This document shows, one piece after another, positions 11,201 through 62,200 of a stretch of DNA of 64,000 nucleotides (the stretch's first letter is position 1; every line of letters starts with the position of its first letter). Source of the stretch: Lamellibrachia satsuma (taxonomy: Eukaryota; Annelida; Polychaeta; Sabellida; Siboglinidae); NCBI GenBank assembly GCA_033239005.1, contig BSQZ01000109.1:811501-875500 (forward strand), in the 5' to 3' direction. The notes beneath the pieces were generated by a model. That model was given only the letters and a program-made list of their open reading frames with translations. It ran no database searches and had not been told where the DNA came from. A program made the translations under genes and the position numbers.

Positions 11201-14200
11201 TGGACATTGTCATCCATGCCTTCTTGCTGAAGTCGTAGTCGAAGCCCAGCAACGCGACTTCAAACCCATAGAAACACTGTGATTTCTTCGACTTTCCAAT
11301 GACGAGTGGCTTCAACAGCACTGTGATTCGGTCTTTTGCATTCTTCCCACCGTTGCAGGAATCACCTTTTGTCACCATCGATTTCGTTGGCATCGGCAGA
11401 CGTTGCCCCCAGTTCCTCATGGCTTCCTCTGGGACGTTCGCACTCTCGCCGTTCAGGACCGAGCACCGGATGTTGTCGGGCTTTCCACCATCCGTTCGAT
11501 CATGTGAAGTCGTCGTATCCATAGTTCATAGACAGCAAGACGGCTTTCTCCTGGATCATGACGCCAGATATGGGAATGTTCCGTGAGCATGCTTCACAAA
11601 ACCATTCCCATACAGCTTCGTTCAGGTCTTTGTACGCGCACTTTCTCTTCTTGTCGTACTTGCGGTCACCATTTTCCCCGTCTTTCCAGTGCGCAAAATG
11701 TCGTCTTTTTTTCGCGATTGTTTACAGCTGTGTCTTTCCAACATTGAGACTCAGTGCATTCGATCGGGCTGACTCCCCTTTCGACAAACGTTCGGCAACT
11801 TTCACATGATATCCAAAGTTAAAAGCGTTTGCCAGGTGGTCGTTGGGTCATTTATAAAGTGGTCGTAGTCTGTCATTAAAAAAACGGTCGGGAAAGGCGT
11901 GTAGTCACTGATCAGGGTGTTCGTTCATCTAGGGTTCTATTGTATATTATTTCAACAGAATACACAAAATCATTGTATATATTATGTATTCATAGAGCTA
12001 GAAAATTAGATTAATGTCAAGAAACGTACTTATGGTTTTATTGTGATTCCTCACTTTTTACTGCAGTAGTTGTACTGTCTAGTGCACTGGTTGTACTGTT
12101 TATTGCACTGGTTGTACTGTTTACTGCACTGGTTGTACTGTCTAGTGCACTGGTTGTACTGTCTAGTGCACTGGTTGTACTGTCTAATGCACTGGTTGTA
12201 CTGTCTAGTGCACTGATTGTACTGTCTAGTGCACTGGTTGTACTGTCTAATGCACTGGTTGTACTGTCTAGTGCACTTGTTGTACTGTCTAGTGCACTGG
12301 TTGTACTGTCTAGTGCACTGGTTATACTGTCTAATGCACTGGTTGTACTGTCTAGTGCACTGAATGTACTGTCTAGTGCACTGGTTGTACTGTCTAGTGC
12401 ACTGGTTGTACTGTCTAGTACACTGGTTGTACTGTCTAGTGCACTGGTTGTACTGTCTAATGCACTGGTTGTACTGTCTACTGCACTGAATGTACTGTCT
12501 AGTGCACTGGTTGTACTGTCTAGTGCACTGGTTATACTGTCTAATGCACTGGTTGTACTGTCTAGTGCACTGAATGTACTGTCTAGTGCACTGGTTGTAC
12601 TGTCTAGTACACTGGTTGTACTATTTACTTGCTCTGGTTGTAATGTTTATTAAGGATTAGAAAATATGTACAGGTATATTGTTTGTTGAGTATGTTTTCT
12701 ATTTCTGTTAGTTGTTGCATTTCCAGTTTGTTAGGAACAGTTTGTGTTGTCAACACAAATACAGTACTATAAAGTGCACCATCTCTACAGAAAGCAATGT
12801 GATATATTATGCAATATTTTTGTTGTGGCCCCTTGGTGTAATGTGGGGGTTGTGTCCATGACAGGCGAATACAAGAAAGATGAGTTACTGGAGAGTGCTC
12901 GGAGCGGCAACGAGGAGAAGATGATGAGTATCCTGACACCCCTCAATGTCAACTCCCACGCGGGAGATGGCAGGAAGGTAAGGAGAGCTTCCATGTGTCC
13001 TTATTCATCCAACCTATCTTTTCAGAGCTGTTTCGGGTTCGGTCGCCTGGGAAACTGTCTGGGTGTCGGCCCACTACGATATCAGGAACTAGCAGAGGAT
13101 GCTACGCTGGTCTTTGTTTAGGAACATTTCTTGTTTCACCAGTAGCATTGTGTACACTAGTAGCATCGTATACACTGATAGCATTGTGTACACTAGTAGC
13201 ATCGTATACACTGATATCATTGTGTACACTAGTAGCATCGTATACACTGATAGCATTGTGTACACTAGTAGCATCGTATACACTAATAGCATTGTGTACA
13301 TACTGTCATTTATATGGTTGTTCCACTTCCATTAAACCCTTTGTATTTGATGATGAATTATCAATTTGTGATGAATTATGAATTTATCTAATTCTAGTTA
13401 ATATGGTGATTACATGACAGTAGATTTTTGTGTTTGTTGTTGTTGACATTTATAGTATAGCTGTCGTGACTGTGTCGTGAAACGCATTTTATTTATGTAT
13501 GAAATGACAGGTACACAAACGTAAGTCTGCCTGAGGCATGTTCTTCAACAACAGTTTAAATACAGATATGTTTCTGTCCAGTCCACGCCACTTCACCTGG
13601 TTGCTGGTTACAATATAGATTGTTTCTGTCCAGTCCACGCCACTTCACCTGGCTGCTGGTTACAATATAGATTGTTTCTGTCTAGTCCACGCCACTTCAC
13701 CTGGCTGCTGGTTACAATACAGATGTGTTTCTGTCCAGTCCATGCCACTTCACCTGGCTGCTGGTTACAATATAGATTGTTTCTGTCTAGTCCACACCAT
13801 TTCACCTGGCTGCTGGTTACAATATAGATTGTTTCTGTCTAGTCCACACCACTTCACCTGGCTGCTGGTTACAATATAGATTGTTTCTGTCTAGTCCACG
13901 CCACTTCACCTGGCTGCTGGTTACATTATAGATTGTTTCTGTCTAGTCCACGCCACTTCACCTGGCTGCTGGTTACAATATAGATTGTTTCTGTCTAGTC
14001 CACGCCACTTCACCTGGCTGCTGGTTACAATATAGATTGTTTCTGTCTAGTCCACACCACTTCACCTGGCTGCTGGTTACAATATAGATTGTTTCTGTCT
14101 AGTCCACGCCACTTCACCTGGCTGCTGGTTACAACCGCACACGCATTGTTCAACTGATTCTACAGAATGGCGCAGACGTCCACGCCAAGGACAAGGGGTA

Positions 14201-59200: not shown

Positions 59201-62200
59201 ATATGATAATAATGTGATTCTGATGGTGCACAGTAATACTGATGATCTCACAGATACAATATGATAATAATGTGATTCTGATGGTGCACAGTAAATGCTT
59301 GTCGACTTCAATCCAGTTAGTGATGCAAATTGTCAGTAATACAAATGCATTTTATTTAGCAATGTTTCATTTTATTTATTATCATTACTATCATACCTGA
59401 TAATACTTTTGTTGTGGCTTTCATGTTTACATCCCAACAGTATTGTATCTGTGAGATCGTCAGTATTGAAAGTGATTTACATCCCAACAGTATTGTATCT
59501 GTGAGATCGTCAATATTGAATGTGATTTACATCCCAACAGTATTGTATTTGTGAGATCATCAATATTGAAAGTGATTTAAAAGTAATTAATTTGAGTTGT
59601 TTAAGTTTATAAACACATATAAACAAGAAGCTATAACTCAAAGGTGATGTTTGATGTGCAGGTATTTATTGTATTTGTTGATGTAGGTATTTATTGTTTG
59701 TTACCACAGGTATTTACTGTTTGTTGTCACAGATATTTACTTTGTTGTCACAGGTATTTACTTTGTTGTCACAGGTATTTATTGTGTTTGTTACCACAGG
59801 TATTTACTGTATTTGTTGTCACAGGTATTTACTGTGTTTGTTGTCATAGGTATTTACTTTGTTGTCACAGGTATTTACTTTGCGGAGAACTCGTCCAAGA
59901 GCAACCAGTATGTATACGGCATCGGGGGAGGGACTGGCTGTCCCGTGCACAAGGACCGATCCTGTTACATCTGTCACAGGTTAGTCAGCCTTCCAGCTCC
60001 AGTGGCTTCTCTTTACACCTTGTCCTCCTCTTTACACCTTGTCCTCCTCTTTACACCTTGTCCTCATGGATGCCCAAACAATATTTGTGGTTTTAATCAA
60101 ATGTGTGTACACATTGGAGAGCATATACTTTTTGTTAATGAAATATTGTATTAATTAATGAAGGATATTTCTTGCACTTACAGCATTTGGCGAACTGAGA
60201 AAATTCTTAGCAGTTCATCTGATTGGTTGAAACGACAATGTTTAATTGCGCTTTCTAATGGTTGTATGGGTTGATCGCCTACACTATGTTGTATGGGTTG
60301 ATCGCCTACACTATGTTGTATGGGTTGATCGCCTACACTATGTTGTATGGGTTGATCGCCTACACTATGTTGACGCACAACAGAAGTAGTTTGTACATTG
60401 TCATGCAAGCATCACTTTGTATATCTGTGTTTGTACATGGGTTTGTGCGGTCAATTTATACATTTGCATGTATTGTCAATGTGTGGGCGCATGTGTAACC
60501 CATGTAAGTGGTCTTGGTCCCCAGACAAGTTTTAACCCATGTAATTGGTCTTGGTACCCAGACGATTTTTAACCCATGTAATTGGTCCTACTCCAGACAA
60601 CTGTTGCTGTGTCGGGTGGTGTTGGGTAAGTCGTTCCTCCAGTTCAGTGCCATGAAGATGGCGCACGCACCGCCCGGGCACCACTCCATCATTGGCCGTC
60701 CCAGCAGTGGCGGACTCACCTTCGCCGAGTACGTCGTGTACCGTGGGGAACAGGTAGGAGTCTGTTTCGTAGTGTACCATAGGGAACAGGTAGGAGTCTT
60801 TATCTTGCAGTGTACCATAGGGAACAGGTAGGAGTCTTTATCTTGTAGTGTACCATAGGGAACAGGTAGGAGTCTTTATCTTGTAGTGTACTGTAGGGAA
60901 CAGGTAGGAATCTTTATCTTGTAGTGTACTGTAGGGAACAGGTAGGAGTCTGTCTCATAGTGTACTGTAGGGAACAGGTAGGAGTCTTTATCTTGTAGTG
61001 TACTGTAAGGAACAGGTAGGAGTCTGTCTCGTAGTGTACCGTAGGGAACAGGTAGGAGTCTTTATCTTGTAGTGTACCATAGGGAACAGGTAGGAGTCTG
61101 TCTCGTAGTGTACTGTAGGGAACAGGTAGGAGTCTTTATCTTGTAGTGTACTGTAAGGAACAGGTAGGAGTCTGTCTCGTAGTGTACCGTAGGGAACAGG
61201 TAGGAGTCTTTATCTTGTAGTGTACTGTAGGGAACAGGTAGGAGTCTGTCTTGTAGTGTACTGTAGGGAACACGTAGGAGCCTTTATCTTGTAGTGTACT
61301 GTAAGGAACAGGTAGGAGTCTTTATCTTGTAGTGTACCATAGGGAACAGGTAGGAGTCTGTCTCGTAGTGTACTGTAGGGAACGTGTAGGAGTCTTTATC
61401 TTGTAGTGTATTGTAAGGAACAGTTAGGAGTCTTTATCTTGTAGTGTACTGTAGGGAACAGGTAGGAGTCTGTCTTGTAGTGTACCATAGGGAACAGGTA
61501 GGAGTCTTTATCTTGTAGTGTACTGTAGGGAACAGGTAGGAGTCTGTCTCGTAGTGTACTGTAGGGAACAGGTAGGAGTCTGTCTCGTAGTGTACCGTAG
61601 GGAACAGGTAGGAGTCTGTCTCATAGTGTACCATAGGGAACAGGTAGGAGTCTGTCTCGTAGTGTACCATAGGGAACATTTGTCATTATTTGTCATTGGT
61701 TAACCTGCCTATTGCATTCATATTCTGATTGACAACCCATAAAATATACCTACATCAATGAATGTCACCATCTGACAACCTATACAATATACCGACATCA
61801 ATGAGTGTCACCATCTGACAACCTATAAAATATACCTACATCAATGAGTGTCACCATTTGACAACCTATGAAATATACCTTCATCAATGAGTGTCACCAT
61901 CTGACAACCTATGAAATATACCTACATCAATGAGTGTCACCATCTGACAACCTATAAAATATACCTACATCATTGAGTGTCACCATCTGACAACCTATAC
62001 AATATACCGACATCAATGAATATCACCATCTGACAACCTATATGCAGTAGTGGCCCCACCCACTGCAGTAGTGGCCCCACCCACTGCAGTAGTGGCCCCA
62101 CCCACTGCAGTAGTGGCCCCACCCACTGCAGTAGTGGCCCCACCCACTGCAGTAGTGGCCCCACCCACTGCGATAGTGGCCCCACCCACTGCGGTAGTGG

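Follow-up and report, generated by a model that had tools for sequence, protein, structure and literature searches.

Exon ends inside intron minisatellites: junction-straddling tandem arrays of the amphioxus 'mirage' type in a tubeworm tankyrase gene

What does it mean when the minisatellite of an intron contains the end of the neighbouring exon? The question is raised by a 64-kb stretch of DNA from the vestimentiferan tubeworm Lamellibrachia satsuma (assembly GCA_033239005.1, contig BSQZ01000109.1, positions 811,501 to 875,500; here called the window, and numbered from its first base), whose plus strand carries a tankyrase gene, the ortholog of TNKS/TNKS2, with a coding region at 5067..62420. 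Repeat units in this gene run across exon-intron boundaries, and an original prediction, made from the letters alone, held that this had happened independently at about eleven exon ends, always anchored on a junction and always growing into the intron, and that the junction might be a preferred origin of tandem duplication. The arrays are a real feature, of a kind already named in amphioxus, where they are called 'mirages'; they are probably the outcome of minisatellite growth at large in a region rich in repeats, with selection on the exons acting as a filter.

The tankyrase exons were located by tblastn with human TNKS2 as query, and a model of 26 exons, with GT-AG introns and a single open frame in the spliced translation, was then built by hand; its last position, 62420, is an arbitrary cut within the last exon and not the true end of the gene. 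A custom spliced aligner reproduced exactly 12 of the 13 manual exons in its test (exon 1 differed at the start only) and added one spurious 4-base end. The model is matched by P0042, an independently deposited L. satsuma tankyrase of 1010 residues that may itself be a prediction, with one mismatch in 1003 aligned residues; among the 120 homologs listed it is the only one near 100% identity, the remainder reaching at most 85%, and amphioxus was rejected as the source of the DNA. From exon 4 to exon 26 the exon joins in P0042 all lie at the outermost sites, and, judging from this protein and from the conservation of the sequence, the outermost splice sites are presumably those used in the animal. 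P0042 lacks exons 1-3, and its start ATG is intronic in the window, just 5′ of exon 4; the annotation was perhaps split by the repeat-rich introns.

Arrays called by Tandem Repeats Finder (TRF) extend into the exon at 9 of the 50 internal junctions of the gene (seven acceptors and two donors), and both 5′ and 3′ exon-intron boundaries are thus affected; all positions below refer to the plus strand. At the exon 5 acceptor (14103) the array occupies 13559..14134, with 11 copies of a 52-bp unit and 32 exon bases, and at the exon 6 acceptor (18187) it is a short array of 2.2 copies of 19 bp (18153..18193), with 7 exon bases. The acceptors of exons 14 (37845) and 15 (40330) are covered by 37671..37854 (57 bp, 3.2 copies, 10 exon bases) and 40266..40342 (36 bp, 2.1 copies, 13 exon bases), while those of exons 16 (44229) and 17 (47030) have 27 copies of a 55-bp unit (42766..44249, 21 exon bases) and 30 copies of a 41-bp unit (45811..47044, 15 exon bases), respectively. 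Three overlapping TRF rows describe the exon 24 acceptor (59871), at 59659..59882, with units of 21-46 bp and 7-12 exon bases. The two donors are those of exon 12 (31807), where 2.5 copies of 25 bp at 31798..31860 include 10 exon bases, and exon 25 (60753), where 25 copies of 38 bp at 60732..61678 include 18-22 exon bases.

A second measure compared each junction window (14 intron and 8 exon bases) with the adjacent intron, a match of at least 18 of the 22 bases being counted as a duplication. Ten tankyrase junctions reach this level, namely the nine TRF cases and the exon 22 acceptor (52030), a borderline case missing from the original prediction, whose upstream array at 51533..52003 has a best copy with 19 of the 22 junction bases. 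The exon 21 donor (50743) stays below 18/22: by alignment, an array of 41-bp units lies downstream of it at 50744..51090, with inner copies that match up to 12 of the 14 exon-tail bases and continue with GTAGGT, and TRF places the array start at 50769, the first copy being degenerate. At the exon 25 acceptor (60597) the upstream array of 37-bp units (60496..60587) shares no more with the exon than chance would give, the best inner copy matching 12 of 22 bases (6 of the 8 exonic), within the range of 9-15 obtained with shuffled introns. Of the eleven junction arrays originally listed, therefore, nine are borne out by TRF and the exon 21 donor by alignment, while the exon 25 acceptor drops out; the numbers of exon bases given for them were right to within a few bases.

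The same analysis was applied to PRPF8, POLR2A, CLTC, VCP and part of COPA, giving, with tankyrase, six genes and 258 junctions in approximately 300 kb of DNA, of which 150 kb is sequence of the same contig beside the window, made up mostly of repeats and transposon-like fragments, that contributes no junctions. Uncertain exon ends were dropped: the first acceptor and last donor of every protein-based model, small unsupported terminal exons in PRPF8, CLTC, COPA and POLR2A, and the POLR2A junctions beside a sequence gap. In POLR2A, moreover, an apparent intron of 53 bases was counted as exon, and the exons were used only singly, the joined model having 16 stops. Among 248 junction windows from five genes 16 reach at least 18/22, against a maximum of 15 when the introns are shuffled and of 16 when the intron is taken from the wrong side of the exon. 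Junction duplications are found by this measure in four of the five other genes. TRF adds seven further overlaps with exons, four in PRPF8, one in POLR2A and two in COPA (one of the latter with only 5 exon bases). The two measures do not always agree: the array at the PRPF8 exon 33 donor is exonic over 39 of 43 bases by TRF, yet fails the 22-base comparison. The acceptor of PRPF8 exon 13 scores exactly 18/22 and so just qualifies as a duplication.

In which direction did the copying run? The part of the units shared with an exon is conserved coding sequence (the exon 5 unit, for example, encodes 11 residues that are also found in human TNKS2), and the copying therefore ran from exon to intron and not the reverse. 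Unit lengths and consensus sequences differ by eye from junction to junction, and the events look independent, as had been proposed. The outermost junction remains intact, and the arrays do expand solely towards the intron, although constraint on the coding sequence would impose the same in any case.

Tandem repeats are abundant throughout this region. The tankyrase introns hold 80 TRF arrays, which make up 62% of intron length, and 51% of a 214-kb segment of the contig (741501-955500) is tandem repeat, in about equal measure to the left of, within and to the right of the window; in four genes on other contigs, arrays account for 1-22% of intron length. Only 9 of the 80 tankyrase arrays straddle a junction, contrary to the claim that arrays are always anchored there, and with 71 of the 80 straddling none the junction was rejected as the sole anchor. 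Across genes, junction matches follow the local rate of duplication in introns: VCP has 0/20 junctions at an intron rate of 0.0%, PRPF8 4/84 at 1.6%, CLTC 1/58 at 1.9%, POLR2A 1/36 at 3.5%, tankyrase 10/50 at 9.5% and COPA 2/10 at 13% (Spearman 0.81, p 0.05, with the six genes as points).

Exons, by comparison, are almost free of such arrays. In 20.7 kb of coding sequence from five genes no array with a period of at least 15 lies wholly inside an exon, where the density in introns would predict approximately 18.9 (Poisson 6e-9); one 12-base array of 1.9 copies is present inside a CLTC exon. Exon bases thus get into arrays mainly through units that straddle a junction. Where array edges do fall within exons, in five pooled genes, their density is near the intron mean of 1.07/kb (1.6/kb at 1-20 bases from the junction, 1.2 at 21-40). 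The exon share of the unit ranges from 0.15 to 0.91 in 14 TRF cases and does not differ from uniform (Kolmogorov-Smirnov p 0.10), as random breakpoints predict, and the units at nine acceptors retain at least 9 intron bases.

These patterns are consistent with the following scheme. Tandem duplication would be frequent almost everywhere in a repeat-rich region, and some founding duplications would span an exon-intron junction by happenstance. Duplications inside an exon would alter the protein and be removed, whereas those inside an intron would persist; straddling duplications would persist when the unit carries enough intron to preserve the splice signal, since the last copy on the exon side would still join an intact exon while the inner copies become intron. 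The array may then have been enlarged and homogenised on its intron side, by slippage or unequal exchange. The mutational steps, and the use of the outermost site in the animal, are the parts of this scheme that we infer.

Whether junctions nevertheless attract duplications was judged against random intron points: every array was collapsed to one copy, and the random point was then tested for a duplicated unit with the same 22-base comparison (a POLR2A intron with an N stretch between two tiles was excluded). Seven settings were run, and the Poisson p values below treat junctions as independent and are uncorrected across settings. In tankyrase a random intron point lies in a duplicated unit at a rate of 9-10%, and 10 of the 50 junctions do so against 4.7 expected (2.1-fold, p 0.023). 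Since tankyrase was chosen for looking striking, a fair judgement has to rest on the other genes, and the excess there is not significant, with 8 of 208 junctions against 5.1 expected (1.6-fold, p 0.14). A looser setting with a shorter exon part gives 10/208 against 5.2 for the five other genes (1.9-fold, p 0.038), and a longer exon part gives 4 against 3.1 for the four without COPA (p 0.37); over all seven settings the ratio is 1.8-2.3 for tankyrase and 1.3-1.9 for the other genes (p 0.038-0.37).

Several results do speak against random placement followed by a selective filter, and for the rival explanation that tandem duplication starts preferentially at splice junctions, chiefly at the 3′ acceptor, for instance owing to the pyrimidine tract there or to the change in composition where intron meets exon. 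All six genes together have 18 of 258 junctions in duplicated units against 9.8 expected (approximately 1.8-fold, p 0.012), and acceptors alone have 13 of 129 against 4.9 (2.7-fold, p 0.0016). A coarser unit-placement model gives higher ratios, 2.9 for tankyrase (9 against 3.1, p 0.005) and 2.5 for four other genes (5 of 198 against 2.0, p 0.053). Array edges, moreover, pile up near junctions, with 15 edges in the last 20 intron bases of the five pooled genes, or 3.0/kb against the mean of 1.07. Random placement and a filter by themselves predict neither the junction excess nor this pile-up of edges, for which random placement offers no full account. On the other side, donors show no excess in the six genes (5/129 against 5.0), the acceptor excess comes mostly from tankyrase, the gene picked as striking (5/104 against 2.6 without it, p 0.12), and the exon share of units is broad rather than fixed. 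We therefore consider a preferred start at junctions unlikely. Its sharper version would make the 3′ splice site a real, acceptor-specific hotspot, at the 2.7-fold level given above and with none at donors, so that part of the growth of tubeworm introns would come from copying of their own acceptors, with as many as 23 decoys, mostly true-like in score, left upstream of the site in use; this we hold to be doubtful. A strong hotspot, as suggested in the original prediction, is not established, and what may be left of it is a roughly two-fold preference for acceptors only.

Could the arrays instead be functional, with multiplied splice sites regulating alternative splicing of tankyrase or its rate of splicing? 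Splice scores were computed for 16 junction arrays (10 acceptors and 6 donors, including the weak exon 25 acceptor). Many but not all inner copies retain the AG or GT signal, and the fraction whose score differs from that of the true site by no more than 1 bit is high at exon 5 (10/10), exon 16 (18/23), exon 17 (17/17) and the exon 25 donor (21/23), as this explanation would have it; few copies do so, however, at exon 24 (2/9) and PRPF8 exon 38 (8/23), and homogenisation of an array would by itself yield high inner scores. Of 122 inner copies, 115 would cause a frameshift or a premature stop if used, the seven open, in-frame ones being at exon 15 (one), exon 24 (four), the exon 25 acceptor (one) and the exon 25 donor (one). 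Housekeeping genes, too, show the same arrays, in proportion to local repeat density, and a regulatory function appears very improbable. An artefact of assembly or repeat finding is the least probable of the explanations considered: the locus was examined in one assembly, and the exon 25 acceptor did prove to lie within chance, but the contigs are few and long (735 Mb in 279 contigs), the junction similarity exceeds that in both the shuffled and the wrong-side controls, and comparable arrays occur in genes on other contigs. Repeat growth under selection on exons thus remains the explanation that we favour.

Intron 9 is mostly filled by a minisatellite with a 22-bp unit (21772-27613, approximately 5.8 kb). 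The start of intron 5 (14218-14400) belongs to a dispersed repeat that recurs on many contigs of the genome, with 71-84% identity in matches of more than about 100 bases. Reading-frame fragments on the minus strand of intron 3, at approximately 10577-11697, resemble, by their motif, a DDE transposase fossil, and others on the plus strand upstream of tankyrase, at approximately 554-2166, resemble the reverse transcriptase of a long interspersed nuclear element (LINE).

The parallel with the amphioxus Adh locus, which had been mentioned in the original prediction, is genuine. In PMC3087553, 'mirage' minisatellites are described in amphioxus Adh3 and in the globins BflGb6 and BflGb9 as tandem duplications across a 5′ or 3′ exon-intron boundary, with units of 10-160 bases and the AG or GT copied; a 2013 paper (PMC3902484) adds amphioxus PGBD5 and cites troponin C. 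The tubeworm arrays agree with these in having units that span the boundary, at 5′ and 3′ ends alike, and splice signals within the copies. Further traits of the amphioxus kind are regular splicing that goes on undisturbed, polymorphism in copy number and instability in somatic cells. They differ in their host, a vestimentiferan annelid outside the reported cephalochordate range, in the number of junctions affected within a single gene (approximately ten, with up to 30 copies), and in the further cases in most of the sampled genes, measured against a random-point null. Among the papers listed in a literature search, which is not proof of absence, none reported a mirage-type structure outside cephalochordates, annelids included. 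Two related systems are worth comparing. Tandem duplication of AG/GT proto-splice sites as a source of new introns (Rogers 1989, as cited in PMC3087553) likewise copies splice signals within a gene, whereas the tubeworm duplicates stay in existing introns and show no new intron. Intron 1 of an earthworm metallothionein gene holds minisatellite arrays (PMC12783039) and so shares with tubeworm tankyrase the presence of minisatellites in annelid introns, but exon bases within the unit are not described in the part of that account available to us.

Junction-straddling arrays have several consequences. The rate at random intron points is a simple null against which repeats at splice junctions can be judged, and the arrays may confuse gene annotation. 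They also offer natural tests of how a splice site is chosen: a true acceptor that lies behind 17-23 upstream copies of itself would be hard to square with simple scanning for the first AG and would favour exon definition. Mirage-type arrays have been proposed, in PMC3087553, as a route to intron gain. Their extension from amphioxus to an annelid suggests that such structures may originate wherever introns are rich in minisatellites, and are not specific to cephalochordates.

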